NCBI RefSeq assembly: GCF_001275135.1
Contig: NZ_LFQU01000018.1
Span: 1-64,000, forward strand
Source: Xylanibacter rarus
Lineage (GTDB): Bacteria; Bacteroidota; Bacteroidia; Bacteroidales; Bacteroidaceae
Direction: 5' to 3'
DNA: 64,000 nt
Shown here: piece after piece, positions 5,556-38,861 of the stretch
How positions within the stretch are numbered: position 1 is the first letter of the stretch
How the letters are laid out: each line of letters begins with the position of its first letter
Program-made: the position numbers and the translations under genes
The notes under the pieces: generated by a model
Told to the model about the DNA's origin: nothing
Seen by the model: only the letters and a program-made list of their open reading frames with translations
The model's database searches: none

Positions 5556-6028
5556 TATAATTGTCTGGATATCCAGGTCAGCAGCAAAGCCACTACATAC
5601 TCCTGCTCAGCGGCCTTAAGTTCACGCCCCGACTCAATGCCGTGCCATTTTGACAGGCAGCCCCGGCAGCAGCATCCTGTTGCGTGTTGTGCCACGAACA
5701 CGGGATGTCCTTTCATCGGTGTCTGCTTTCCGTCGTTTGGTATAACGGCCGGTGCAAGTCTTTTTCTTATTATGTCAGCTGCATGCATGCCAATGCGCCC
5801 AAGTCCCTTCTCCGTTACATAATCCTTCATCTCATCATTCAGCCGGAAGCGCCGCCTGAAGTCCGACTTCGCCAACCGCCCGAACACTTCATCAAAATTG
5901 TATTTACTCAGGTCTATGGCCGGCATGCAAGGCTCAAAATCGTCATCGCCAAACAGACTTCCTTCCACAGGCTTTCTTCCATTATTAGTACGTTTTCTCA
6001 TTTCAAATGTTTTTCTGCCGACAGCCAT
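5555..6028 (-). CDS. DUF4186 family protein
   Basis: This 157-residue protein matches the DUF4186 family: the core LAKSDFRRRFRL, then KRLAPAVIPNDGKQTPMKGH, then AQHATGCCCRGCLSKWHGI, is highly characteristic. The CCCRGC cluster and two His residues suggest a metal site. The function of the family is unknown. The N-terminal 45 residues are basic and acidic low-complexity and less conserved. The gene converges on the glutamate synthase-like gene across a shared hairpin, and a 39-bp inverted-repeat region lies upstream at 6123-6161. Confidence 0.75.
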   Translation of the reverse strand: MAVGRKTFEMRKRTNNGRKPVEGSLFGDDDFEPCMPAIDLSKYNFDEVFGRLAKSDFRRRFRLNDEMKDYVTEKGLGRIGMHAADIIRKRLAPAVIPNDGKQTPMKGHPVFVAQHATGCCCRGCLSKWHGIESGRELKAAEQEYVVALLLTWISRQL

Positions 6029-6122
6029 CTACATCACATTCTGCCGGCAAGCACAAAGATACGACAAAAAATCAGAATATCCTCTAACCTGCAAGACATA
6101 AAGCTACGCGAAATGGCCGTGC

Positions 6123-6161
6123 TGCATAAAATGTGTAAATAAAGGTAGCACATTTTATGCA
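6123..6161. repeat. 13-bp perfect inverted repeat upstream of mscS
   Basis: TGCATAAAATGTG and its exact complement CACATTTTATGCA are separated by 13 bp. It lies about 30 bp before the mscS -7 box, between two divergent genes, so it could be an operator for either or a weak terminator. No T-run follows. Confidence 0.5.
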
Positions 6162-6191
6162 TATTATTTCATCTTTTATATTTTTATTTCT

Positions 6192-6199
6192 TATCTTTG
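6192..6199 (+). promoter_or_regulatory. -7 promoter box of mscS
   Basis: TATCTTTG, a perfect TAnnTTTG box, lies 102 nt before the ATG of the mechanosensitive channel gene, giving a leader of roughly 95 nt. Confidence 0.55.
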
Positions 6200-6301
6200 C
6201 ATATACCAAGCTTCAACATGCAGTCGGGGCCACATATCCGGCAGCAATGTGCAAAGGCTGGACATGACACATCATTATAAATAAAACTAAATCATAACGC
6301 C

Positions 6302-7177
6302 ATGAATATCAATGAAATGCTAAACATGGAAGTCTTCGGACTGTCAATCCGCTGGATTGTCGTGTTCTTAATCAAGGGTTTCTTAATTTACGTGTTCGTG
6401 CGCATACTCAATGCGTTCATCAAGTATCTGTTCAACCGTTCGCAGAGAAAGCGCGGCCGCATTGTCTTCGACGAGACAAAGATAAGCTTTATACGCCAGA
6501 TAATCACCACCGCCGTATACATCATAGGTGTGGCTGCATTTCTGTCGCTCATTCCGGGCATGGAGAAGGTCAGCAACTCAATCCTCGCCAGTGCCGGTAT
6601 CATGGCCATGGCCGTCGGCCTTGCTTCTCAGGAGGCCTTGTCTAACATCGTAGGCGGACTGTTCATCATCTTTTCGCGTCCGTTTAAGGTGGGCGACTTT
6701 ATCCAGGTTGACAACGTCATCGTTGGAACAGTCAAGGAGATTACGCTCCGCCATACGGTAATACAGAACGCCGAAAACCGCATGATTCTCATTCCGAACA
6801 ACAAGATCAACTCAAGCACCATCGTCAATTCGTCTTATGGCGAAACCACCACGTGCTCTTTTATAGAAGTCGGCGTGTCTTACACCACTGACCTCGGCCA
6901 TGCCATCGACGTGATGAGAGACGAGATTATGAAGCACCCGATGCTCATAGACCATCGCACCGACGAGGAGAAAGCCAACAATGTGCCGCAGGTTGTCATA
7001 CGCGTTATCAATCTTGGCGACTCTGCCATAACGCTGCGTGCATGGGCGTGGGCGTCTACCACGGGCAACGCCTTTGCCATGAAGTGCGACCTGCTGAGGG
7101 CTATCAAGGAGCGTTTCGACGTCGAGAAGATAGAGATTCCGTATCCTTACTATAACCAGATTATCATGAAGGCATAA
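6302..7177 (+). CDS. Small-conductance mechanosensitive channel (MscS family)
   Basis: This 291-residue inner-membrane protein has three N-terminal membrane helices (about 15-37, 62-82, 92-120). The third is the pore-lining TM3 rich in Ala and Gly (ILASAGIMAMAVGLASQEALSN in outline), followed by the MscS beta-domain motif FSRPFKVGDFIQV. The C-terminal alpha/beta vestibule domain is complete. The family opens under membrane tension to release solutes during osmotic downshock. The size matches E. coli MscS (286 residues). The gene is monocistronic. Confidence 0.9.
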   Translation: MNINEMLNMEVFGLSIRWIVVFLIKGFLIYVFVRILNAFIKYLFNRSQRKRGRIVFDETKISFIRQIITTAVYIIGVAAFLSLIPGMEKVSNSILASAGIMAMAVGLASQEALSNIVGGLFIIFSRPFKVGDFIQVDNVIVGTVKEITLRHTVIQNAENRMILIPNNKINSSTIVNSSYGETTTCSFIEVGVSYTTDLGHAIDVMRDEIMKHPMLIDHRTDEEKANNVPQVVIRVINLGDSAITLRAWAWASTTGNAFAMKCDLLRAIKERFDVEKIEIPYPYYNQIIMKA

Positions 7178-7241
7178 TGGCCATGCCCTTGCGGTATGAT
7201 GCGGACAAGACGCGCCGCACCAGTAGGCAATCAAACAAATA

Positions 7242-7346
7242 AAATTTTTCTTTAAAAACTCATAACTCGTCACATTCGTATGTAAGTCATTTATTTTCAA
7301 ACACATACAGTGTGACGAGTTGTTTTTCCAACTCATCACACAACTC
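7242..7346. repeat. Truncated copy of a GTGACGAG foldback (MITE-like) element
   Basis: The left terminal sequence (TTTAAAAACTC then AACTCGTCACA) and the internal hairpin (AGTGTGACGAGTT with a near-complement) correspond in order to the first half of the complete element at 63295-63559. The right half is missing here. It carries no coding sequence. Confidence 0.6.
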
Positions 7347-7365
7347 TTCTTCCTGCCTTATTTCT

Positions 7366-7450
7366 GATATGTATCCTTTTGCATCCTGAAAGACGGCATA
7401 TTACAATGCAAAAGGACACCTTTCACAATCCGTTTTGCGGTCTTTCATCC
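7366..7450. repeat. Degenerate AAAAGG/CCTTTT repeat units
   Basis: This stretch has units such as GCAAAAGGACACCTTTCACA and TATCCTTTTGCATCCTGAAA, closely matching units at 15440-15540 and the longer array at 63774-63925. The rest of 7178-7836 shows only MarR operator-like palindromes and a promoter. I do not support the short reverse ORF here. Confidence 0.5.
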
Positions 7451-7653
7451 GTGGCGTCGTTTTCATAGCCATTATACCTATTCATGCAGCCTAATGCATA
7501 ACCTTCGTCCATGCTCATATCCGCATGCCTCAAGCATCTTTATGCCCAGCTTCTGCTGACTTGAACGCACAACACAATTGCCTGCCCTACTGCTCACTGG
7601 CAATATCACCGCATGGCTCATGACATACACACGTCCGCCTATTACAGATTTAT

Positions 7654-7779
7654 TTTCCATTGGAAAGTGTTAAAAGACAGGCCTTTTAGCAAATAAATGT
7701 TACAAAACAAATTATTTTCTATCGGAAATTATCTTTATAACAAACAAATATCTATATTTGCAATGTTTTCCAATGGAAA
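7654..7779 (+). promoter_or_regulatory. marR promoter with three TTTCCA-N-TGGAAA operator-like palindromes
   Basis: Two perfect 13-bp palindromes, TTTCCATTGGAAA (7654-7666) and TTTCCAATGGAAA (7767-7779), flank a third imperfect site TTTCTATCGGAAA (7716-7728). The -7 box TATATTTG at 7753-7760 lies between the second and third, so the last palindrome sits on the predicted transcription start. This is the expected place for autorepression by the MarR protein encoded 58 nt downstream. Binding is inferred, not shown. Confidence 0.6.
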
Positions 7780-7836
7780 TAATATAAGGATTAAAAAATC
7801 TTTCACCATAATATGTAACGGCAAAATAATATCGAC

Positions 7837-8232
7837 ATGAACAACAACTGCATCTGCAAGATAAGAAAGATATACCGCTGTATAAGCGAGTTTGAACTAC
7901 AGCTACAGAAGGCCTTCGGCCTCAACTTCAACGAGGCCATGCTGCTCTGCGTGCTGTCTGAAAAAGAGAAGATGCTTTCGGGCGAGATAGCCGACGAACT
8001 TCAACTCTCGCGCTCAAACGCATCCAAGGTGATTGCATCGCTCGAGAAGGAGGCTTACATAAGGCGCAACGTGTGCCCACACGACAGCCGCTGCATGAGT
8101 TTCCACCTCACCAAGAAGGGCCGCGAACTTATCGACCGCATACACTGCTCGCAGTTTTCGCTGCCCGAAGAGCTGCGCCTGATAGCCGAAAGCATGACCG
8201 AAAAAGAAATAACAACAAACAATAATAATTAA
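7837..8232 (+). CDS. MarR family transcriptional regulator
   Basis: This 131-residue winged-helix regulator has the MarR recognition region LSGEIADELQLSRSNASKVIASLEKE at about 48-73, followed by the wing and FHLTKKGRELIDRI. It is Cys-rich for its size: Cys at positions 5, 7, 14 and 30 in outline, then NVCPHDSRC and HC. It sits 15 nt upstream of the CoA-disulfide reductase/rhodanese/TusA fusion, clearly in one operon. I infer it senses reactive sulfur or oxidants through its thiols and controls the operon by binding the upstream palindromes. That is inference from context and composition. Confidence 0.82.
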   Translation: MNNNCICKIRKIYRCISEFELQLQKAFGLNFNEAMLLCVLSEKEKMLSGEIADELQLSRSNASKVIASLEKEAYIRRNVCPHDSRCMSFHLTKKGRELIDRIHCSQFSLPEELRLIAESMTEKEITTNNNN

Positions 8233-8247
8233 AACAAGCACACTGAC

Positions 8248-10704
8248 ATGAGACACATCATCATTGGCGGAGTTGCCGGTGGAGCCACCGCAGCCGCACG
8301 CATTCGCAGGGCCGACGAAAAGGCCGAGATAATATTGGTTGAAAAGGGGCCGCACATTTCATATGCCAACTGCGGACTGCCCTACTACATCGGCGGCACT
8401 ATTGCCGACAAGAACAAGCTGTTTGTGCAGACACCCGAGTCGTTCGGACGCCGCTTCAACGTCGACGTGCGCGTCAACACCGAGGCCATAAGCATCGACA
8501 CTAAGGCCAAGACCGTAACGCTGCGCCGCCCCGACGGCTCTGTTATTGACGAGCATTACGACCGCCTGCTGCTCTCGCCCGGCTCGTCGCCCGTCAGACC
8601 TCCGTTCCCCGGCATCGACACCGAGGGCATATTCACCCTGCGCAACGTTGAAGACACATTCCGCATAAAAGACTATCTTACGCAGCACAGCGTAAAGAGC
8701 GCCGTTGTTGTAGGCGGAGGATTCATCGGACTCGAGATGGCAGAGAATCTCAGTCATGCCGGTGCCCGCGTGTCTATTGTCGAGATGGCTCCGCAGGTAA
8801 TGGCACCGGTCGACTTCAGCATAGCTTCTCATGTCCACCGCGAACTGCTCAGTCAGGGTGTTTCGCTTCATCTCAACACAGCCGTTGAGCGCTTCGAGAA
8901 GGACAACGGACGCATACGCGTGTTCTTCAAGTCGGGCAAGAGCATTGTAACCGACCTCGTGCTGCTCTCCATCGGCGTAAGCCCCAATACGGCGCTTGCC
9001 AAGAGTGCCGGCATAGAGCTTGGCGCGCGTGGCATCAAGGTAGACAAATATCTCGAGACATCGGCCAAGGGCGTATATGCCGTAGGCGATGCCATAGAAT
9101 ATCCGCATCCAGAATATGGCGAGCCGTGGCTCAACTATCTTGCCGGACCGGCTAACCGTCAGGGACGCATCGTGGCCGACAACATGGTGTTTAGCAATAC
9201 AACCGAATATGAAGGAGCCATCGGTACGTCTATTGCTAAAGTGTTTGATGTAGTTGTAGGTTCTACGGGCCTTCCTGCAAAGCGCCTGAAGCAACTCGGC
9301 ATCAAATATCAGAGCAGCACTACAACAAGCATGTCTCATGCCGAATATTACCCCGGTGCGTTCTTCATCACCACCAAGCTCACCTTCAATCCTGAAGACG
9401 GCACGCTCTACGGCGCGCAGTGCGTAGGACACGAAGGCGTAGACAAGCGCATCGACCAGCTGGCCATAATCATCAAACACAAGGGCACCATCTACGACCT
9501 TATCCGCCTTGAGCAGGCTTATGCTCCTCCGTTCTCGTCGGCCAAGGATCCGATAGCCATTGCTGGCTACACCGCCGCCAACATCATATCCGGCAAGATG
9601 CCTGTTATCTACTGGCGCGACATCGACGGTCTCGACCGCAGCAAGGTTCAGATTATCGACACCCGTACACCTTCCGAATTCAGCCTCGGCACAATCAGCG
9701 GGGCCGTCAACATTCCCGTAGACGACATCCGCGAGCGCATGGGCGAGATAGACAAGAGCAAGCCCGTAGTAACGTTCTGCGCCGTAGGTCTCAGAGGCTA
9801 CATCGCCGCACGCATACTTATGGCCAACGGCTACGAAGTGCGCAACCTTTCGGGCGGCTACAAGACTTATCAGCTGGCCACACAAGACCTTCAGTGTGCC
9901 GACGGCAACGATGACAACGACGATTCTTCTTGTTCGTGCAGTTGCACTCCGGGCAGTCAATGCAGCGACAGCCGTGCAACGCTTACCATTGATGCCTGCG
10001 GACTGCAGTGCCCCGGTCCGATACTTAAGCTGAAACAGGCCACCGACGACATGCAGCCCGGTGAGACTATAGAGGTAAAGGCCACCGACCCCGGTTTCCC
10101 GTCAGACGCAAAGGCGTGGTGTAAGTCAACGGGCAACGCCTTCCTTTCGGCTTCGTGCACCGACGGCTGTCACACCGTCCTCATCAGGAAGCAGCAAGCT
10201 GACGACAAGCCTGCCGCCGCATGCGCTCCTGCCGGCAAGAACAAGACCCTTATATGCTTCAGCGATAACCTCGACCGCGCCATAGCCACATTCATTCTTG
10301 CCAACGGCGCAGCCGCCACAGGCAGCAAAGTGTCTATCTTCTTCACCTTCTGGGGCCTCAACGTCATAAAGAAGAAGCACGGCCCGGCCGTAAAGAAGAC
10401 TCTCACCGAGAAGATGTTTGCCCACATGCTCCCCAAGAGCAGCAACAGTCTTGCCCTGTCAAAGATGAACATGATGGGCATGGGCAGCAAAATGATACGC
10501 GGAATAATGAAAAAGAAGAATATCGACTCACTCGAGTCGCTCATCCGTCAGGCAATGGACAACGGCGTCGAGTTTATAGCATGCCAGATGACAATGGACA
10601 TGATGGGCATAAAGAAGGAGGAACTGCTCGACGGCGTAACCGTGGGCGGCGTAGCCTCTTACATGCAGAAGGCTGAAGAAGCAGGCGTCAACCTCTTCAT
10701 CTAG
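8248..10704 (+). CDS. CoA-disulfide reductase / rhodanese / TusA / DsrE-like fusion protein
   Basis: This 818-residue fusion handles sulfur in the cytoplasm. Domains in order: a CoADR-type FAD/NAD(P)-disulfide oxidoreductase (1 to about 450; GGVAGGATAAARIRR for FAD, single redox Cys42 in YANCGLPYY, VVVGGGFIGLEMAE for NAD(P)H); a rhodanese domain (about 465-550; loop FCAVGLRGY, Cys near 511); a short Asp/Cys-rich linker (DDSSCSCSC); a TusA sulfur carrier (about 570-640; CGLQCPGP with Cys near 588); and a DsrE/DsrF/DrsH-like domain (about 665-818). The chain could reduce CoA persulfide or polysulfide and relay persulfide sulfur between Cys residues. Such fusions are known in Bacteroidales; the in vivo substrate is not established by sequence. 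Confidence 0.87.
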   Translation: MRHIIIGGVAGGATAAARIRRADEKAEIILVEKGPHISYANCGLPYYIGGTIADKNKLFVQTPESFGRRFNVDVRVNTEAISIDTKAKTVTLRRPDGSVIDEHYDRLLLSPGSSPVRPPFPGIDTEGIFTLRNVEDTFRIKDYLTQHSVKSAVVVGGGFIGLEMAENLSHAGARVSIVEMAPQVMAPVDFSIASHVHRELLSQGVSLHLNTAVERFEKDNGRIRVFFKSGKSIVTDLVLLSIGVSPNTALAKSAGIELGARGIKVDKYLETSAKGVYAVGDAIEYPHPEYGEPWLNYLAGPANRQGRIVADNMVFSNTTEYEGAIGTSIAKVFDVVVGSTGLPAKRLKQLGIKYQSSTTTSMSHAEYYPGAFFITTKLTFNPEDGTLYGAQCVGHEGVDKRIDQLAIIIKHKGTIYDLIRLEQAYAPPFSSAKDPIAIAGYTAANIISGKMPVIYWRDIDGLDRSKVQIIDTRTPSEFSLGTISGAVNIPVDDIRERMGEIDKSKPVVTFCAVGLRGYIAARILMANGYEVRNLSGGYKTYQLATQDLQCADGNDDNDDSSCSCSCTPGSQCSDSRATLTIDACGLQCPGPILKLKQATDDMQPGETIEVKATDPGFPSDAKAWCKSTGNAFLSASCTDGCHTVLIRKQQADDKPAAACAPAGKNKTLICFSDNLDRAIATFILANGAAATGSKVSIFFTFWGLNVIKKKHGPAVKKTLTEKMFAHMLPKSSNSLALSKMNMMGMGSKMIRGIMKKKNIDSLESLIRQAMDNGVEFIACQMTMDMMGIKKEELLDGVTVGGVASYMQKAEEAGVNLFI

Positions 10705-15439: not shown

Positions 15440-15545
15440 CATGCAAAAGGCCTGAAATATAAAAGCATACCTTTTGCATTGTAATTTGCCGTCTTTTAGC
15501 TCATAAAAAGCGGCAAATTGCACGCTAAAAGGGCATGTTTTACAA
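15440..15545. repeat. Degenerate AAAAGG/CCTTTT repeat units before tetR
   Basis: Units such as GCAAAAGGCCTGAAATATAA, GCATACCTTTTGCATTG and GCTAAAAGGGCATGTTTTAC occur between kdgK and tetR. They resemble those at 7366-7450 and 63774-63925. Apart from this and the tetR promoter, 15317-15704 holds no gene. Confidence 0.5.
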
Positions 15546-25690: not shown

Positions 25691-25734
25691 TTTTGAACGT
25701 ATGTTCAAAATGTGGCATTTTTGTTCTATCTTTG
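25691..25734 (+). promoter_or_regulatory. Recombinase promoter with palindromic operator
   Basis: TTTTGAACGTATGTTCAAAA (25691-25710) is an 8+4+8 perfect inverted repeat lying where the -33 box should be. The -7 box TATCTTTG is at 25727-25734. A repressor bound there would block the recombinase promoter. The promoter also rules out the in-frame ATG at 25693 as the start. Confidence 0.6.
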
Positions 25735-25758
25735 GAGCATGAAGCAAAATTCAGCGAC

Positions 25759-26865
25759 ATGGATAAGGTTCAGAAACAAAGAGGAAGCATCGTGCTGCAC
25801 AAAGAAACAAGGGACGGTGCAGACTACATACGGATAGAATATGCGAGCAGTCAGGCTGTCGCCCAACTGCTCGCCCAAGACACAGGCATGGAAATGGCTG
25901 GCAACGGCTCTGCATACATAGCGTCAGCCGCTTTCAGCCTGCCGGATTTCTACGACCGCTATTCACCCCACGCCTATATTGATTACAGCCGGGTTTACGT
26001 GCGGCATCCCAAACCTAAAAGGGAATACACACTGCCGAAAGGCTACCTCGAACTGCTGGAACAGAAGCGTTACAGCCCCTCGACCGTCAAAACATACCGT
26101 GCCTATTTCAGCGACTTCATGGAATATCACAAGGGACGGAACATCGACCGCCTGAAAGTGCCGGACATCAACAAGTACATACTCTATCTTGTGAACGAGA
26201 AGAAAATCTCGGTGTCGCAACAGAATATGCGCATCAATGCTATCAAGTTCTATTACGAGCAGGTGAAAGGCGGCAAACGGCAATACTACGGCGGTATCAC
26301 CCGTGCCAAAGAGTACAAGAGCCTGCCCGAAGTGTTGAGCAAGAATGAAATTAAGCGCATCCTTGCACAAATTTCCAACATCAAGCATCACTGCATGATT
26401 TCGTTGGTTTACTCTGCCGGACTTAGAAGAAGCGAATTGCTTAACCTGACCCCGCAGGACATCAACAGTGAAACAATGTCGGTTCGCATCATGGGCAAGG
26501 GGAAGAAATGCCGTTATTCGCTCCTTTCGCCCAAGTTGCTGGAAGAACTACGGCACTACTTCCGGGAATATCGCCCACAAAAATGGTTGTTTGAGGGCGA
26601 AACACCCGGAGAACAATATTCGGCAAGTGCATTGGTGAAAGTGCTGAAAGAAGCCGCACATCGTGCTGGCATCAAACACCGTGTACACGTACACATGCTG
26701 CGCCACTCCTTTGCCACACACTTGCTGGAACAGGGAACAGACCTGCACACGATACAGGAATTGCTGGGACACAACGACATCAAGACCACAACCATTTATC
26801 TTCATGTGTCAAGTGCCCATAAAGCAAAAATCCCTAATCCCCTTGATACACTGGATAATCCGTGA
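25759..26865 (+). CDS. XerD/IntI-like tyrosine recombinase of the cassette array
   Basis: This 368-residue tyrosine recombinase has an N-terminal extension of about 90 residues, a core-binding SAM-like domain (LELLEQKRYSPSTVKTYRAYFSDFMEYH) and a catalytic domain with Arg in GLRRSELLNL (about 222), HMLRHSFATHLL (about 313) and the nucleophile Tyr in TTTIYLHV (about 345). The ending SSAHKAKIPNPLDTL recalls integron integrases and IS91-associated recombinases. The gene sits at one end of an array of small genes separated by hairpin repeats, so I infer it captures or rearranges these cassettes. It is distinct from the ICE integrase at 61.5 kb. Confidence 0.83.
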   Translation: MDKVQKQRGSIVLHKETRDGADYIRIEYASSQAVAQLLAQDTGMEMAGNGSAYIASAAFSLPDFYDRYSPHAYIDYSRVYVRHPKPKREYTLPKGYLELLEQKRYSPSTVKTYRAYFSDFMEYHKGRNIDRLKVPDINKYILYLVNEKKISVSQQNMRINAIKFYYEQVKGGKRQYYGGITRAKEYKSLPEVLSKNEIKRILAQISNIKHHCMISLVYSAGLRRSELLNLTPQDINSETMSVRIMGKGKKCRYSLLSPKLLEELRHYFREYRPQKWLFEGETPGEQYSASALVKVLKEAAHRAGIKHRVHVHMLRHSFATHLLEQGTDLHTIQELLGHNDIKTTTIYLHVSSAHKAKIPNPLDTLDNP

Positions 26866-26927
26866 GGTGCAGTTATAGAAGTGTAGGAACGACACCATAA
26901 GGTGCGGTTATAAATAAATTATCAACC
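26864..26927. repeat. Leader between recombinase and first cassette
   Basis: A 12-bp direct repeat, GGTGC(A/G)GTTATA, occurs at about 26865 and 26901. TTATCAACC at 26919-26927 is the exact inverse of the GGTTGATAA that starts the first cassette repeat at 27544, so the first cassette is flanked by an inverted pair. This is the place to look for an attI-like insertion site. Confidence 0.4.
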
Positions 26928-26942
26928 ATAAAACGTAGAAAT

Positions 26943-27533
26943 ATGTACGAAGAATTTTTAGAAAAAAGCCTCAATAGCAAGAGGCAAGCAGTAGATGATA
27001 CTTTTATTGCTAAATATGCTGATTTGTCTTATCCCGAACTGAATACTTTATGGCAGGAGGTCGGGTTAGGAAGTTTTTGTAATGGGCTGTTTAAGCTCAT
27101 CAATCCATCCGATTATCAGGATGTGATAAACTCCTGTTTTGAAAAGGAGGATGACCAATCATTTCTACCATTCATGTGTACGGCTTTCGGCGATCTCTTT
27201 GCCTATGTAAAGAATCCGAGACTGAATAATTACGTCGTTTATCTGAATGTCAGATACGGAACATATTTAATACTTCCTGCCAATCTTCGTGCGATTTTTA
27301 ATAAGGTAATGGTAAATGAAAGTTTCTTGAAAGGCTGGTTTGATTTAGAAAATTATCCTATAATACAAGAAAAACTCGGAACTCCAGATTATGACGAGTG
27401 TTTTGGATATTCTCTACTTTTGGCTTTGGGAGGAAGTGAAGATATTGAAAACATCAAGATAGTCAAGACTATTCCGTACATTGACATTTGTACCCAAACA
27501 ATCGGCGAATTTGAAATTGCAGATAAATGGTGA
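26943..27533 (+). CDS. T6SS immunity protein, Tdi1/DUF1851-like
   Basis: This 196-residue cytoplasmic protein has the two-part layout of GAD-like/DUF1851 (Tdi1) immunity proteins: an N-terminal half with LNTLWQEVGLGSFCNGLFKLINP and a middle segment FMCTAFGDLFAYVK. The C-terminal block DYDECFGYSLLLALGGSEDI, then YIDICTQTIGEFE, is the family's clearest signature. Tdi1 neutralises a DNase effector of the type VI secretion system; whether the same toxin type is targeted here is inference. It is the first cassette after the recombinase and is followed by repeat 1. Confidence 0.72.
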   Translation: MYEEFLEKSLNSKRQAVDDTFIAKYADLSYPELNTLWQEVGLGSFCNGLFKLINPSDYQDVINSCFEKEDDQSFLPFMCTAFGDLFAYVKNPRLNNYVVYLNVRYGTYLILPANLRAIFNKVMVNESFLKGWFDLENYPIIQEKLGTPDYDECFGYSLLLALGGSEDIENIKIVKTIPYIDICTQTIGEFEIADKW

Positions 27534-27543
27534 ATATAGAATA

Positions 27544-27602
27544 GGTTGATAACAACGCAGGATAACGGCAAGCCGTTCCCTGCTGAACCATTATGAACAA
27601 TT
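27544..27602 (+). repeat. Cassette repeat 1 (hairpin)
   Basis: GGTTGATAACAACGCAGG begins the repeat. It folds as GGTT/AACC, GCAGG/CCTGC and ACGGC/GCCGT with an AA loop and unpaired GATA-side bases. It ends with CCATTATGAACAAT. Left and right motifs are shared with repeats 2-4. Confidence 0.75.
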
Positions 27603-27614
27603 AGAGTACACGAT

Positions 27615-27947
27615 ATGAGAAATGAAATTTTACAGTTGAAAGATTTGGGTCGTATGCCTAATGAAAGCATCAATGATACAGAGAGTATTGATGAATTAGT
27701 AAATACTTATGATGCCTTATTAGAACAAATACAACTTCCCATATCATTTGATGAAGCTATGGTGTTGGTACAAATCTTTCCTGAAAATGCTTTTTATGAT
27801 TTGCAGTGGAGTTTATTAAAACTTGTAGAGTCTGTTTGCGTTGATGATGAGAATAAGTATATTCAGTTAATAAACTCTTGCCCAAGCCAAGAATGGCGGG
27901 ACACTCTAAATGCTCGCTATGCAAATTATAAAAGGCACAAGGGGTAA
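27615..27947 (+). CDS. Hypothetical protein, second cassette (probable immunity)
   Basis: This 110-residue acidic, soluble, helical protein is not one I recognise. The segment DEAMVLVQIFPENAFYDLQWSLLKLVESV resembles the general style of small immunity proteins (acidic, with a helical FP...WLL..E core). It lies between repeats 1 and 2 and by position is a cassette gene. A role as immunity protein is inferred from the array alone. Confidence 0.6.
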   Translation: MRNEILQLKDLGRMPNESINDTESIDELVNTYDALLEQIQLPISFDEAMVLVQIFPENAFYDLQWSLLKLVESVCVDDENKYIQLINSCPSQEWRDTLNARYANYKRHKG

Positions 27948-27951
27948 AGTA

Positions 27952-28012
27952 AGTTCATAACAAGCCGGGATAACGGACTAACGCCGTTCCCCGCCAAGCC
28001 ATTACTAACAAT
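27952..28012 (+). repeat. Cassette repeat 2 (hairpin)
   Basis: Starts AGTTCATAACAAGCCGGGAT and ends CCATTACTAACAAT. The stem includes GGGATAACGG against CCGTTCCCC. GATAACGG and CCGTTCCC are identical to repeat 1. Confidence 0.75.
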
Positions 28013-28026
28013 ACGAATAACTCTTT

Positions 28027-28419
28027 ATGACAAAATTCATTTTAGATGCGATGTATTATCAGATATTCATATTTAATAGGGATAAATTTATATTGGAAAA
28101 TCCACATGAGCGGACGATACAGATAATATGTGGAATATTATTTCTTCCTGTTATAGTATTGACGTATCTACTGATAAAGGAGAATTTCAATTATAAAACC
28201 CCTTTTGTGTTTTTTATCATAATCTATGTTTTACTATACAAGACATTCTGTTCGTATTATATCAAAAGGAAAAAAGGTATGGAAATTATAAGGAGTAAAC
28301 CTCTAATATTTAATAGCCAAAAGATTTCTTCCTTCATATCATGGATGATTTATCCCATTTTGGTTGTATTACTTTATTTTATAATAACACATCGTCATTG
28401 GCTAAAAATTATACAATAA
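28027..28419 (+). CDS. Small membrane protein, third cassette
   Basis: This 130-residue protein has three predicted membrane helices (about 38-58, 62-80 and 102-122) and a basic loop with YIKRKKGMEIIRSK between the second and third. It lies between repeats 2 and 3. No family is recognised. Membrane immunity proteins against pore-forming or cell-envelope toxins are a known type, so that role is possible. Confidence 0.6.
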   Translation: MTKFILDAMYYQIFIFNRDKFILENPHERTIQIICGILFLPVIVLTYLLIKENFNYKTPFVFFIIIYVLLYKTFCSYYIKRKKGMEIIRSKPLIFNSQKISSFISWMIYPILVVLLYFIITHRHWLKIIQ

Positions 28420-28430
28420 AGATTTAATAA

Positions 28431-28490
28431 GTTAGTAACAACGAAAGATAGCATCTGACGATGCTCCTTTCTAACCAATAGCGTACATAT
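28431..28490 (+). repeat. Cassette repeat 3 (hairpin)
   Basis: Starts GTTAGTAACAACGAAAGATA; stem pairs GTTA/TAAC, GAAAG/CTTTC and GCATC/GATGC with a TGAC loop. The stem sequence differs from repeats 1 and 2 while pairing is kept, and ends CCAATAGCGTACAT. Confidence 0.75.
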
Positions 28491-28913
28491 ATGAATAATG
28501 TAACAAGAGTAAGAATTGTATATGAATGTAGCATAATAGGTGTTGTTTTGCTGACATTCTTAAAAGGTATGTTCCCATACATGGGAGCATGGTGGCGAGT
28601 AGCCCTTATTACTTCACTTGTAGGATTGTGGTTTTCACTATCTTATCTGAAACGGTATAATTATAAATGGGGGTTCAATTACATAGGAAATCATTTATAC
28701 ATTAACCTCTTATTGAAAGTACAGAAGTGGTTTCAGAACGCTACAATCATAGCCTTATTGATACCTGTATTCTTAAAAGACCTCTTGTATAATCAATATT
28801 GCTTAGTAGCATATATATTGCTTGTAGGTATGTTCTTGGGCGTGAAGCTGGCTACTTACACAGTAGAGTACGCTATATATAAAAGTAAATTCATTGGTAA
28901 CAAGGAAAGATAA
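28491..28913 (+). CDS. Small membrane protein, fourth cassette
   Basis: This 140-residue protein has four predicted membrane helices (about 10-26, 37-54, 82-98 and 103-120) with a basic C-terminal tail. Its last few codons (GNKER) are read from inside repeat 4, so the stop codon lies within the repeat. No family is recognised. By position it is a cassette gene. Confidence 0.6.
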   Translation: MNNVTRVRIVYECSIIGVVLLTFLKGMFPYMGAWWRVALITSLVGLWFSLSYLKRYNYKWGFNYIGNHLYINLLLKVQKWFQNATIIALLIPVFLKDLLYNQYCLVAYILLVGMFLGVKLATYTVEYAIYKSKFIGNKER

Positions 28914-28946
28914 CCCCTGAACGCTTTCCCTCACCAAACCATTATG
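28895..28946 (+). repeat. Cassette repeat 4 (hairpin)
   Basis: TTGGTAACAAGGAAAGATAA starts it; stem GGT/ACC and GGAAAG/CTTTCC. It ends ACCATTATGAAT, and that ATG is the start codon of the next gene. So this repeat supplies both the stop of one cassette and the start of the next. Confidence 0.72.
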
Positions 28947-29402
28947 AATAAAGGAATAAAAAAGACAGATAACTATTTTGAACGAGTGAAGCAGCGTGCA
29001 AACCGGACGAATTACAGATACTATTTTTTTGACTACCTATATTTCAAGGGAGAGGTTTGGGGCAAGAAGATAGGACGGATGTCAGGTTTTATACTGCTGT
29101 TTTGGTATTGGTGGTGGATAGTAGTTCTGCCCGGTAACTTTCTCCTGATTAACAATGTACCGCAATGGTCGTCCTTACATCTTGGCTATTTAGGTGCAAT
29201 GTTTTTGTTTATTTGTGTATTTATTCTTGCACGATACAGGAAAGCCCGTGTACAGGCATTGTTGAACCGCTACCGCCGCTCTAAGCATATCAGCGCATTA
29301 CAGGCATATTTTCTGTTCCTGCTGCCCTTTGTACTTTTCTTCTTAGAAACATGGCTGTTCGATGAATGGGGTTGGACGGATTGCGTGAGGTGGAACAAAT
29401 GA
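28944..29402 (+). CDS. Small membrane protein, fifth cassette
   Basis: This 152-residue protein has three predicted membrane helices (about 46-68, 84-104 and 126-143) with an Arg-rich cytoplasmic loop (RYRKARVQALLNRYRRSKH). Its ATG is inside repeat 4. No repeat follows it: the ICE regulator gene begins two bases after its stop. So this may be the oldest, fixed cassette or mark the array end. No family is recognised. Confidence 0.6.
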   Translation: MNKGIKKTDNYFERVKQRANRTNYRYYFFDYLYFKGEVWGKKIGRMSGFILLFWYWWWIVVLPGNFLLINNVPQWSSLHLGYLGAMFLFICVFILARYRKARVQALLNRYRRSKHISALQAYFLFLLPFVLFFLETWLFDEWGWTDCVRWNK

Positions 29403-29430
29403 TATGTCATTCATATATAAAACATCAGAT

Positions 29431-30273
29431 ATGGAACAACGGATTACATCACTATTGCTGCCCGCTCCCGAAGCGGAACTGGAAGCGTCCTGCAAGGAAC
29501 TGGACGAAAAGGTAACATGGCTGCTGCACAACAGCCGGAAAATGGACAACTACTTGGAACTTGAACCGTTCAGCAAGGACGGGCGGCTGTGCGCCCACGT
29601 GTGCGACACGCTCAAAAGCCTGCCGGAAACGCCGACACTGGCGGCGTACAAGGACTACAAGACAATCATCATTCTGCTGGGTATGTCCACCACACATTAC
29701 GCCATACTGGACGAACTGGCGGAACAGCACCGCAAGCGGGACGACATACCCGAACTGACCGCCTACTGCGATGCGCTCCACTGGATGCGACCGGGACGGC
29801 AGTACCTATGCAACGTGTACAACACGGTATGCCACGCTTTCCACCTGCTGCGGAGAAACCCGGTAAGGGACAACCGCCTGCTGGTGACGGAAAAGGAGCT
29901 GTGCCACGCCGAACGGATGCTGCCGGAACTGGGCAGGCAGACGTTCACCGAAATGGTACGTCTGAAAGGCTACATGGTCTATGATGCCGAGCAACTGGCG
30001 GATAAATGCGGCATGGAATACGGCTCGTTCCGGCGAAAGGTAAAGAAAATGACCGGGTACACGGCTAAAGAATGGGTGATAAAGGAACGGGTAAAGGACG
30101 TGGAACACTACCTGATGAACACAAACCTCACGCTTACCGAAGTGGCGTTCACCACCGGGTTCGCATCGACATCGAACTTGAACGACTTCTGCAAGGCTTA
30201 CTTGCTGGACACACCGGGCGAGATACGCAGAAAAGCGCAGGAAACAAGAAAATGCACAGTTACAAGAACGTAA
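29431..30273 (+). CDS. AraC-type HTH regulator of the ICE
   Basis: This protein of about 280 residues has an uncharacterised helical N-terminal part and a C-terminal AraC-like double HTH (YDAEQLADKCGMEYGSFRRK, then LTLTEVAFTTGFASTSNLNDFCKAYLLDTPGEIR). Similar proteins lie beside rteC in Bacteroides conjugative elements. A start nine codons earlier (29404) is possible, but the Met at 29431 begins the usual MEQRITSLL sequence. GC content and codon use (many CGG, CTG, CCG codons) jump here compared with the AT-rich array, marking the start of the ICE core. Confidence 0.75.
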   Translation: MEQRITSLLLPAPEAELEASCKELDEKVTWLLHNSRKMDNYLELEPFSKDGRLCAHVCDTLKSLPETPTLAAYKDYKTIIILLGMSTTHYAILDELAEQHRKRDDIPELTAYCDALHWMRPGRQYLCNVYNTVCHAFHLLRRNPVRDNRLLVTEKELCHAERMLPELGRQTFTEMVRLKGYMVYDAEQLADKCGMEYGSFRRKVKKMTGYTAKEWVIKERVKDVEHYLMNTNLTLTEVAFTTGFASTSNLNDFCKAYLLDTPGEIRRKAQETRKCTVTRT

Positions 30274-30311
30274 TGTGAAAAATCAAGAATAAAACAGATT
30301 TTTTATGCCCG

Positions 30312-30319
30312 TAACTTTG
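30312..30319 (+). promoter_or_regulatory. -7 promoter box of rteC
   Basis: TAACTTTG matches TAnnTTTG. It lies downstream of the alternative ATG at 30305, so the start at 30347 is preferred. Confidence 0.55.
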
Positions 30320-30346
30320 TGCTTCATAAAAGATAAGCACAAGGTT

Positions 30347-31207
30347 ATGGAACATAAGATACCGTTGGAAACATACTTCGCCGGACTGCTTCAAAAAGTG
30401 GAATGGCAGATACAGGAATACGAGGACACCGCAGCGGACACGCTGACGCTCTGCCGCCTGTGCGTGGACTACCTGCAAGAGATACTGGGCGAACTCAAAA
30501 CCTTTATAATCTCCTACCCGTTCGCCAGCACGGAAGAAGAAATACACTTCTTCAAGGAACTGAAACCGCTTTTAGCAAGCAAAATCATCTATTACAACAC
30601 CGTTTACAAGATAGAGGTGCGCTTTCCCAGCGGCAGCGAGGACGTGCAGCGGGACTACCTGCTGTCGGAAACCGACCGGATTTCAAAGTCGTTCCAGCGG
30701 AACTTGGCGTTCTACCAGTACCACCGCACGAAAGCCACCTACTTGGACAGGCAGTATTTCATGCGTGGGAAGCCTGACATACAAATCATTGTGGACAGTT
30801 TCTATTACGAAACAGACCCACAGTTCAGCACCAGTCACGACTTCAAGGTAGCCAAGATTTTAGCCAACGAACTGCTGGAAATATACCTCACCAACCGACT
30901 GCACGAACTGGAACGCCGGGAACAGCGCAAGCGGGTGAAGAACGGCTTCACAGGAAAGGTGCTACGCTGGACGGGGACGAAAAGGGCGTTGGTGGAGCTT
31001 GTCTATGCACTGGACGCCTGCGGCTGTCTGAACAAGGGAACGGTTGATATTAAGGAGATTGTAGCCTATTTTGAATACGTTTTCGACATCGACCTCGGCG
31101 ACTTCTACCATACCTACATGGAACTCAAAGCCAAGACCAAAGACCGCACAGGCTTCCTCTCCACCCTGAAAGACAGGTTGCTGCTGCGCATGAGGGAACA
31201 GGATTAG
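30347..31207 (+). CDS. rteC: RteC-like regulator of ICE excision
   Basis: This 286-residue protein matches RteC of Bacteroides conjugative transposons: the all-helical N-terminal domain (LETYFAGLLQKVEWQIQEYE, CRLCVDYLQEIL), the TYLDRQYFMRGKPDIQ segment and a C-terminal winged-helix region (GTKRALVELVYALDACGCLNKGTVDIKEIVAYFE) bear the family pattern. In CTnDOT, RteC is induced by RteA/RteB under tetracycline and activates the excision operon. Here rteA, rteB and tetQ are absent, so the signal must differ. Confidence 0.85.
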   Translation: MEHKIPLETYFAGLLQKVEWQIQEYEDTAADTLTLCRLCVDYLQEILGELKTFIISYPFASTEEEIHFFKELKPLLASKIIYYNTVYKIEVRFPSGSEDVQRDYLLSETDRISKSFQRNLAFYQYHRTKATYLDRQYFMRGKPDIQIIVDSFYYETDPQFSTSHDFKVAKILANELLEIYLTNRLHELERREQRKRVKNGFTGKVLRWTGTKRALVELVYALDACGCLNKGTVDIKEIVAYFEYVFDIDLGDFYHTYMELKAKTKDRTGFLSTLKDRLLLRMREQD

Positions 31208-38197: not shown

Positions 38198-38476
38198 CAA
38201 AGGTAGCGACTAAATATGCTATATTTGGACGGGCGGCAAGGGCTGTCCGAATTTGTCCTGCGGTGTCCCGATTTGTCCGGGTGGGATGAAATTCCGCAAC
38301 CATTGGTTGCAGAATTGAAAAGGGCATAAAAAAAGAGAGTGAATGATTTCACTCTCTTTCGATGAACCCTTTGTGAACCCTTTGGTCGTTTTTTGAAATA
38401 GCTAAAACTCAAGTAATTTGCATATTTTGCAAAAGAAAATCATTCGAGTATGAACCATATGTGAACCCTTTAATGG
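38198..38476. repeat. Structured iteron repeat, copy 1 (left edge of cargo slot)
   Basis: In order: GGTAGCGACTAAA, GGCAAGGGCTGTCC, CCGAATTTGTCCTGCGG, a hairpin built on CCGCAACC/GGTTGCAG, and 11-bp iterons TGTGAACCCTT (38361-38385 and 38449-38476). A terminator-like hairpin AAAGAGAGTGAA/TTTCACTCTCTTT (about 38330-38358) lies inside. Copy 2 at 40847-41097 has the same order with diverged sequence. This covers much of the 700-bp gap 38158-38861. Confidence 0.6.
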
Positions 38477-38861
38477 ATTAGCGGGGAACACTGTTTAAGC
38501 GTCATCGCGCTTCGTTAGTAATCTGTTATTGCACTCGTTTCAAATCCCCGATAGATTGGAGTGACATTTCTATGTAGGGAATAGTTTTTAGAATATGGAT
38601 GTTATCTATTGCTTCTTTACCACCCAATGCCAATGCCGATACAAGACATGGAGATTATAGAATAAAAATAATTCATCTTTCTTATTATCAGTCATTTGAA
38701 TATTTTCTGTTTTTCTCTATTTTTGCCATTTTCTGTTATTCAGTACACTTTGAAATATCATTTTCTTTTGTACCTTTGCATCCGCAGAAAACAAAAGAAA
38801 ATCAACTATTTAGTGTAATTACCCGGTTACGGCACCTAAATCGAGATAAAACCTCTAAACA

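Follow-up and report, generated by a model that had tools for sequence, protein, structure and literature searches.

How does a gut bacterium assemble a row of small genes behind a recombinase gene? The question is raised by positions 25759-29402 of a 64,000-nucleotide stretch of Xylanibacter rarus DNA (contig NZ_LFQU01000018.1, positions 1 to 64,000; hereafter the window), where a recombinase gene and five co-oriented small open reading frames (ORF1-ORF5) are found. Recombinase-associated acquired interbacterial defence (rAID) clusters of Bacteroidales were reportedly described by Ross et al. in 2019. An earlier note on this DNA, made from the sequence alone, had named an XerD/IntI-like recombinase followed by five small unidirectional ORFs and had called the locus a rAID cluster. 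Both elements are seen in the sequence and the ORF list, and identification as a rAID array is supported, for the features given in the available part of a 2025 preprint (a homologous tyrosine recombinase, co-oriented short low-GC genes and conserved intergenic motifs; PMC12247911) are all there. The same text says of the gain of two homologous copies by rAID that it 'is not yet clear', and treats rAID biogenesis as an active research area. The locus shares with known rAID clusters the recombinase, the short low-GC genes, the intergenic motifs, putative orphan immunity genes and a sign of mobility, with no difference in kind; it is an ordinary, partly decayed rAID array. We consider it probable, with good confidence, that this array of immunity cassettes works like an integron. 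Integrons are known for gathering antibiotic-resistance genes, and in the array likened to them the exchange points could be mapped to a few bases.

In the proposed mechanism, the recombinase encoded at 25759 would excise and insert single genes as cassettes. Each cassette would start with TTA-x (x being about five cassette-specific bases), continue with the gene and x'-TAAC (x' being x as its reverse complement) and close with a 40-nt hairpin whose last bases are CCA. Once the two ends of a cassette had been joined, pairing of x' with x would close a long folded site with an outer stem, an unpaired spacer, inner stems and a 2:1 bulge; in the array only TAA and TTA could pair, since each hairpin is followed by the x of the next cassette. 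Exchange would occur within A-TTA, either at the right edge of a hairpin or at an attI-like site just after the recombinase gene. The recombinase would probably act on folded single-stranded DNA and mainly beside its own gene. Comparison among loci shows cassette units, terminal repeats, an exchange point, covariation in the hairpin and an order that varies between near-identical elements.

A profile built from the four repeat copies of the window gave 189 plus-strand matches at E < 0.01, in the window and in 29 of the 35 related loci that a scan of GTDB genomes had yielded (numbered with the prefix L), and a single minus-strand match (window ~38471-38527); the repeats are beyond chance. A second profile round gave 201 plus-strand matches up to E 10, 188 of them at E < 1e-3, and all but three of the 188 lie downstream of the recombinase. 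The exceptions are in L021, where 5574-8656 holds three rAID sites upstream of the recombinase and a duplicated TetR-type region, which suggests a second array or tandem elements. No short site was found in six of the 35 loci (L014, L018, L019, L037, L041 and L042): L018, L019 and L042 end no more than about 250 nt past the gene, L037 has a truncated match, L041 and L042 are only distantly related, and the 1.6 kb of L014 contain no site.

Most cassettes bear their own 8-bp terminal inverted repeat (TTANNNNN...N'N'N'N'N'TAAC). Across 110 unique end pairs, with 11 partial sites set aside, the five bases after TTA matched the reverse complement of those before TAAC at frequencies of 0.81, 0.76, 0.83, 0.85 and 0.83, compared with means of 0.26-0.51 at the same positions for shuffled partners. 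A run of at least five consecutive matches was present in 75 of the 110 pairs, versus approximately 3.5 after shuffling, and the two sides of one hairpin matched at background only (164 pairs). At least four of the five end bases matched in 58 of 66 intervals of 200-500 nt and in 3 of 16 intervals over 1200 nt.

Pairs of sites that share one neighbouring cassette locate the exchange point. With the same upstream and a different downstream cassette, the hairpin was kept at ≥90% identity in 82 of 120 pairs and at 70-90% in 25. With the same downstream and a different upstream cassette, it was kept at ≥90% in 1 of 82 pairs and fell below 70% in 62, and the 12 bases after TTA matched at 0.96-1.0; the background from unrelated site pairs was 8% at ≥90% and 74% below 70%. 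These identities mean that the hairpin usually travels with the upstream gene and that identity switches within the invariant CCATTA, at CCA^TTA; the switch is also seen at a conserved attI-like site next to the recombinase. The attI-like stretch runs up to A^TTA, where the first cassette begins. In 22 of 31 loci the sequence that follows TTA is the exact reverse complement of the bases preceding the first TAAC detected; in the other 9 it is not. This counterpart of the place where cassettes join adjoins the recombinase, as in integrons. The duplicate locus L033 was left out of the exchange-pair, interval, attI-junction and neighbour analyses. Separately, a TTCAAGGCA-like stretch lies exactly at A^TTA in L032, L033 and L040 (sites near 15527 or 16257) and also at the first junctions of L015, L019 and L021.

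Related elements show how cassettes turn over. P. gordonii, P. faecalis, B. salyersiae, B. propionicigenes and a P. distasonis plasmid carry the flanks of the array (24716 to ~26921; 29425 onward) at 95-98% identity. Of the clusters represented by ORF1-ORF4, these near-identical elements hold none in L009, L011 and L012, one in L010 and three in L142, which has the window's right-hand block from ~27958 on. The earlier note had expected cassette content to vary between otherwise identical elements and had named fixed order and content as speaking against a rAID cluster. Content does vary between elements with such flanks, with breakpoints at the repeat edge, and order is not fixed: in more distant elements the window's cassettes are permuted (4-1-2...3 in L040, ...4-1...2-3 in L030), and among 49 cassette-protein clusters present in at least two loci, 42 have at least two downstream and 40 at least two upstream neighbours. 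Between elements with recombinase genes at least 95% identical, 2 of 34 pairs had the same first unit and 8 of 26 the same unit behind the last site (L033, L035, L038, L043 and loci with fewer than two sites set aside), a small hint that turnover may be greatest beside the recombinase. The comparison suggests that immunity cassettes are both shuffled and transferable. The gene that closes the array differs between the near-identical elements, which share a breakpoint near 29425.

Covariation was analysed in 104 distinct sites. Of the cells of a 12-pair stem, 85.5% were paired versus 70.3% after shuffling, double-changed cells numbered 235 versus 81 and the covariation score was 0.453 versus 0.194 (0 of 500 shuffles in each case); slid versions of the structure scored far lower. 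Folding with z < -2 was observed for 81 of the 104. The two inner stems are parted by a 2:1 bulge of constant size, mostly AT opposite C; this asymmetry could give the folded strand a polarity, by analogy with the extrahelical bases of attC (PMC3053210, in the part available). The site appears folded and strand-asymmetric, as in integrons, and the fold may serve recombination. For the window, single-strand folding gave z values (plus/minus strand) of -3.7/-3.2 for site 1, -1.65/-2.75 for site 2, -3.3/-3.5 for site 3 and -0.9/-1.2 for site 4, i.e. folding is strong on either strand for sites 1 and 3, chiefly on the minus strand for site 2 and hardly present for site 4. Site 3 is missing ~10 nt including CATTA relative to L030 and L040, and site 4 is, by eye, the left half of one hairpin type fused to the right half of another. 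The four conserved hairpin repeats described earlier are therefore two intact sites (1 and 2), one truncated (3) and one chimeric (4).

The likely start of the recombinase is ATG 25759, from which residue onward rAID homologues align. The protein matches Phage_integrase (E 2.2e-39) and Phage_int_SAM_4 (E 1.9e-16), and its top PDB sequence match is the integron integrase 2a3v (E 3.3e-36). Residues R223, K247, H312, R315, H338 and Y347, which we take to be catalytic, are invariant across 15 aligned relatives. It is 78-99% identical to the 29 repeat-associated recombinases of the GTDB scan (the B. fragilis 9343 reference gene set aside). Against the integron-integrase model TIGR02249 it scores 191.9 bits, below the cut-off of 265, and profile positions 180-238 have no counterpart. 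The GLR-to-HxLRH spacing is 91 residues versus 134 in 2a3v (counted from the alignment with it), and 91-97 in 90 of 90 measurable rows of a wider recombinase set (99 rows). The IntI-specific domain is absent, and by the usual definition the enzyme is not an IntI; this domain serves to recognise IntI and is described as necessary in the available parts of PMC9668308, PMC2426708 and PMC9024848. In a tree of 99 rows (4 of 103 dropped for stop codons or no match; IntI not included), the rAID recombinases, 35 rows in all, form a single clade (support 100/99), to which L051 and L053 are sister. A mediocre structure model (predicted local distance difference test, pLDDT, 66) ranks XerA and IntI4 level as structural neighbours. 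In the same model, residues 1-68 (25759-25962), an extra N-terminal part ahead of the IntI/Xer-aligning portion, form a small strand-helix domain with weak fold neighbours.

What do the cassettes encode? With two plasmid loci added, 199 intervals were delimited, and the longest ORF lies on the plus strand in 196. The proteins fall into 105 clusters, 55 of them single-member, and include the immunity families Tdi1, SUKH, Imm5, Imm11, Imm22, Imm43, Imm68, Imm-NTF2 and PoNi (from 25 of 45 matched families); two annotated plasmid-borne arrays encode Tdi1, SUKH, Imm26 and PoNi. Pfam matches among the 105 cluster representatives also comprise TPR, LRR, ankyrin, many DUFs and transposase families. 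The cassettes probably guard the cell against toxins of neighbouring bacteria.

In the window, sequence matches make an immunity role well supported for ORF1 only (T6SS_Tdi1_C E 5e-19, GAD-like E 1.4e-13, PDB 8fzz_B E 1.8e-79), as the Tdi1 signature reported in the earlier note had indicated; ORF1 belongs to the same family as the Tdi1/Tdi orphan immunity proteins of PMC10470768, as far as its available text goes, and would neutralise some Tde variant. A search of each ORF against immunity families, suggested in that note, succeeded for this protein and gave no significant family for ORFs 2-5. Their description as one small acidic and three small membrane proteins holds: ORF3 has three hydrophobic segments and ORF4 two, and by eye ORF5 is hydrophobic and ORF2 acidic. 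ORF1-ORF4 are 110-196 aa at 26.5-36.2% GC and ORF5 is 152 aa at 41.6% GC; at least two genes of the array are thus co-directional, ~100-300 codons long and below 41% GC, as the definition of a rAID cluster asks. A structure model of ORF2 (pLDDT 87.6) had no Foldseek match at E ≤ 0.001 (best E 0.81), and a plasmid search gave no match for it. ORF3 is present in 2 of 251 genomes of the family and ORF5 in 5 of 251, own genome included. Two ORF5 relatives of 43% (L147, L148) sit in rows of small genes, whose 10 scanned neighbours gave DUF1266, DMP19, a PH domain and a weak DUF3997, with no recognised effector. Small-gene rows with ORF5 relatives also occur beside DUF1266 (L153) and DMP19 (L154); L154 starts with rAID sites that fade out downstream and L153 has none. 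A TssD search of the own genome gave no match, but neither did its controls, and a VipB search of four genomes gave none, with the control matched in E. coli only. Genes other than ORF1 may likewise neutralise toxins.

Several observations count against an integron-like cassette array. No run of five matching bases was found in 35 of the 110 end pairs, many of which are long intervals where sites may have been missed. The hairpin fell below 70% identity in 13 of the 120 same-upstream pairs, and the site pairs are not mutually independent; because of these 13 pairs and of chimeric hairpins such as site 4, some exchange, perhaps homologous, must also take place inside or left of the hairpin, more rarely. 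The terminal gene has no site, yet differs between near-identical elements. Of the five covariation measures, two are no better than after shuffling (stem pairs changed on both sides, 9 versus 8.2; extra pair types, 23 versus 23.3), and the structure was drawn from the same sequences as were tested for covariation. The recombinase lacks the IntI-specific domain that integron integrases reportedly require. Pfam-type searches left ORFs 2-5 with no significant family match (e.g. ORF2, Imm30 E 0.058). Finally, excision and insertion would rest on comparative breakpoints, with no excision circle or live rearrangement seen.

These observations leave room for other explanations. It is highly improbable that the repeats are RNA processing or stability hairpins between co-transcribed genes, with shuffling by ordinary homologous recombination. 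The hairpins do stand between co-oriented genes, the last ORF stops inside the site in 44 of 198 ORF-containing intervals, and hairpin-replaced and chimeric sites occur; however, junctions fall mostly at one repeat edge and not along the repeat, and neither the terminal repeats, which match across a whole gene and not across one hairpin, nor the same junction at the attI-like site would be explained. A more serious contender, although still unlikely, is a recombinase acting on double-stranded Xer/dif-like cores, with the hairpin as spacer or accessory, as in Xer-flanked modules. Such modules of Acinetobacter use short double-stranded dif-like sites and, to our knowledge, have no dedicated recombinase beside the array. 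They likewise involve Xer-like recombination and small exchangeable modules, in their case carrying resistance (PMC7399989, in the part available). The missing IntI-specific domain, inverted GGTTATAA/TTANNNNN-like arms seen by eye in the attI-like site, and the tie of XerA with IntI4 as neighbour of a mediocre model would all fit this explanation. Yet the covariation and the constant-size bulge point to a selected folded form, as does the presence of hairpins with another sequence in the corresponding position of sister clades, and within arrays the left and right borders of a site are complementary at TAA/TTA only.

It is slightly less probable again that the array is a general bank of accessory genes, not specifically for immunity, in which ORFs 2-5 serve, for example, phage defence or membrane stress. 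The lack of significant matches for these ORFs, together with the TPR, LRR, ankyrin, DUF and transposase families among the cassette clusters, speaks for such a bank, but many immunity families are found among cassette proteins and in the two plasmid-borne arrays. We prefer an integron-like array of immunity cassettes.

Integrons likewise have mostly one-gene cassettes, an attI-like site by the recombinase gene and structured sites, and also cassette-specific complementary end boxes, exchange just before TT and AAC in the left box. In a circular integron cassette, both boxes derive from the same gene. Integrons differ in having the IntI-specific domain, absent from the rAID recombinase, and in exchanging at GTTRRRY, whereas rAID exchanges at A^TTA. 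The rAID boxes are N5-TAAC and A^TTA-N5, not the RYYYAAC and GTTRRRY between which attC runs, and rAID sites of 43-48 nt are shorter than the 57-141 bp quoted for attC (both PMC3053210, in the part available); distant Bacteroidota arrays have AAC and GTT. Accordingly, rAID functions in the manner of an integron, but the usual definition of integrons excludes it. Neither the cassette ends nor the exchange point nor the attI-like site was found in the available parts of the literature examined, which did not cover Ross et al. 2019.

It is somewhat likely that an integron-like family with recombinases devoid of the IntI-specific domain spans the Bacteroidota and that rAID is one of its branches; searches requiring that domain would presumably miss this family. 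The same TTA/TAAC rule, with different hairpins, was found beside the sister-clade recombinases (~47% identical) of L156 and L157 and, with another hairpin, on a Phocaeicola massiliensis plasmid (L144; recombinase 46.6% identical), giving cassette chains of 4, 9 and 4 versus shuffled maxima of 1, 2 and 2. No chain was found in L158 (recombinase 48% identical, internal stop), other distant loci gave chains of 0-2 under the TTA rule, no better than shuffled, and beside distant recombinases neither self-comparison nor the rAID profile found rAID-type arrays.

Long attC-like sites of ~123 nt with GTT/AAC ends were detected in 25 of 39 loci of distant recombinases (64 sites; a single match in 8 of the 25 loci), using a profile seeded from four loci chosen for matching ends and iterated, which may drift. 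The recombinases beside such sites are 43-54% identical and belong to other families of the order and to other orders and classes of the phylum. All 64 sites are on the recombinase strand and none is upstream of the recombinase, but the DNA fetched was mostly downstream, which leaves the strand count as the informative figure. Of 16 anchored cassettes, 15 had own ends matching in at least 5 of 6 bases (shuffled mean 0.95), as had 6 of 7 fully anchored ones outside the four seeding loci. The long sites fold moderately (13 of 35 with z < -3, median -2.5), the best forming long stems with single unpaired bases. In 14 of the 39 loci there was no long site at E < 0.1, some contigs ending soon after the gene. 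On balance we favour one rule for the three site types, with complementary cassette-specific ends, a hairpin between and exchange before TT. None of eight scored recombinases (six long-site, two sister-clade) reached the integron-integrase cut-off; five pass the broader NCBI model 'site-specific tyrosine recombinase/integron integrase', and therefore NCBI already groups such proteins loosely with integrons. Integrons have been reported from Bacteroidota (PMC8618304, PMC2426708), and IntegronFinder 2.0 names one complete integron in Bacteroidetes proper (PMC9024848), as far as the available parts of these papers go.

The mechanism offers a testable account of gene gain by rAID arrays, in which a non-IntI recombinase would exchange cassettes at A^TTA in an integron-like way. 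The mapped exchange point, the cassette definition and the attI-like site allow cassettes to be delimited in any genome. Should the wider family prove real, the IntI domain, by which integron integrases are defined, would be dispensable for integron-like cassette exchange at folded sites, gut bacteria would have specialised such exchange for storing toxin immunity, and many Bacteroidota cassette arrays may have gone unrecognised. As a practical rule, the cassettes of a gut strain would also indicate toxins it may resist.

Table 1. Parts of the array and its right flank in the window
Feature	Coordinates	Strand	Remark
rAID tyrosine recombinase, 368 aa	25759..26865	+	IntI/Xer-like, without IntI-specific insertion
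attI-like site	26866..26921	+	CACC-ATAA-GGTG palindrome, then GGTTATAAATAAA^TTA; junction 26918/26919; common to elements up to A^TTA
Cassette 1	26919..27590	+	ends TTATCAAC.../GTTGATAA
ORF1, 196 aa	26943..27533	+	Tdi1-family immunity protein
Site 1	27550..27593	+	TAAC-hairpin-CCATTA, intact
Cassette 2	27591..28001	+	ends TTATGAAC.../GTTCATAA
ORF2, 110 aa	27615..27947	+	acidic, all-helical model, weak Imm30 resemblance
Site 2	27958..28004	+	intact
Cassette 3	28002..28477	+	ends TTACTAAC.../GTTAGTAA
ORF3, 130 aa	28027..28419	+	membrane protein
Site 3	28436..28477	+	hairpin retained; CATTA and left end of cassette 4 deleted
Cassette 4	28478..28941	+	left end damaged (left repeat copy lost); right end ATTGGTAA
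ORF4, 140 aa	28491..28913	+	membrane protein; stop codon within site 4
Site 4	28898..28944	+	chimeric hairpin, weak fold
Terminal gene unit	28942..29424	+	ORF5 (28944-29402, 152 aa, membrane); no trailing site
Right flank of element	29404..31207	+	AraC-type regulator (29404-30273), RteC (30305-31207); family search

The array is bordered by a TetR-type gene on one side and by AraC- and RteC-type genes on the other. Family searches of the surroundings found RteC, a relaxase, TraG-type proteins, TraM, DUF4138, a topoisomerase and an arm-binding integrase. Because these are present, a location within a CTnDOT-type conjugative element is supported (RteC, relaxase, coupling protein and Tra genes all being there), in line with the conjugative element proposed before. 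About 9 kb outside the array, 38471..38636 on the minus strand holds a remnant 3' end of another Tdi1-type cassette with a degenerate site, and stretches similar to this remnant adjoin sites in L021 and L025.

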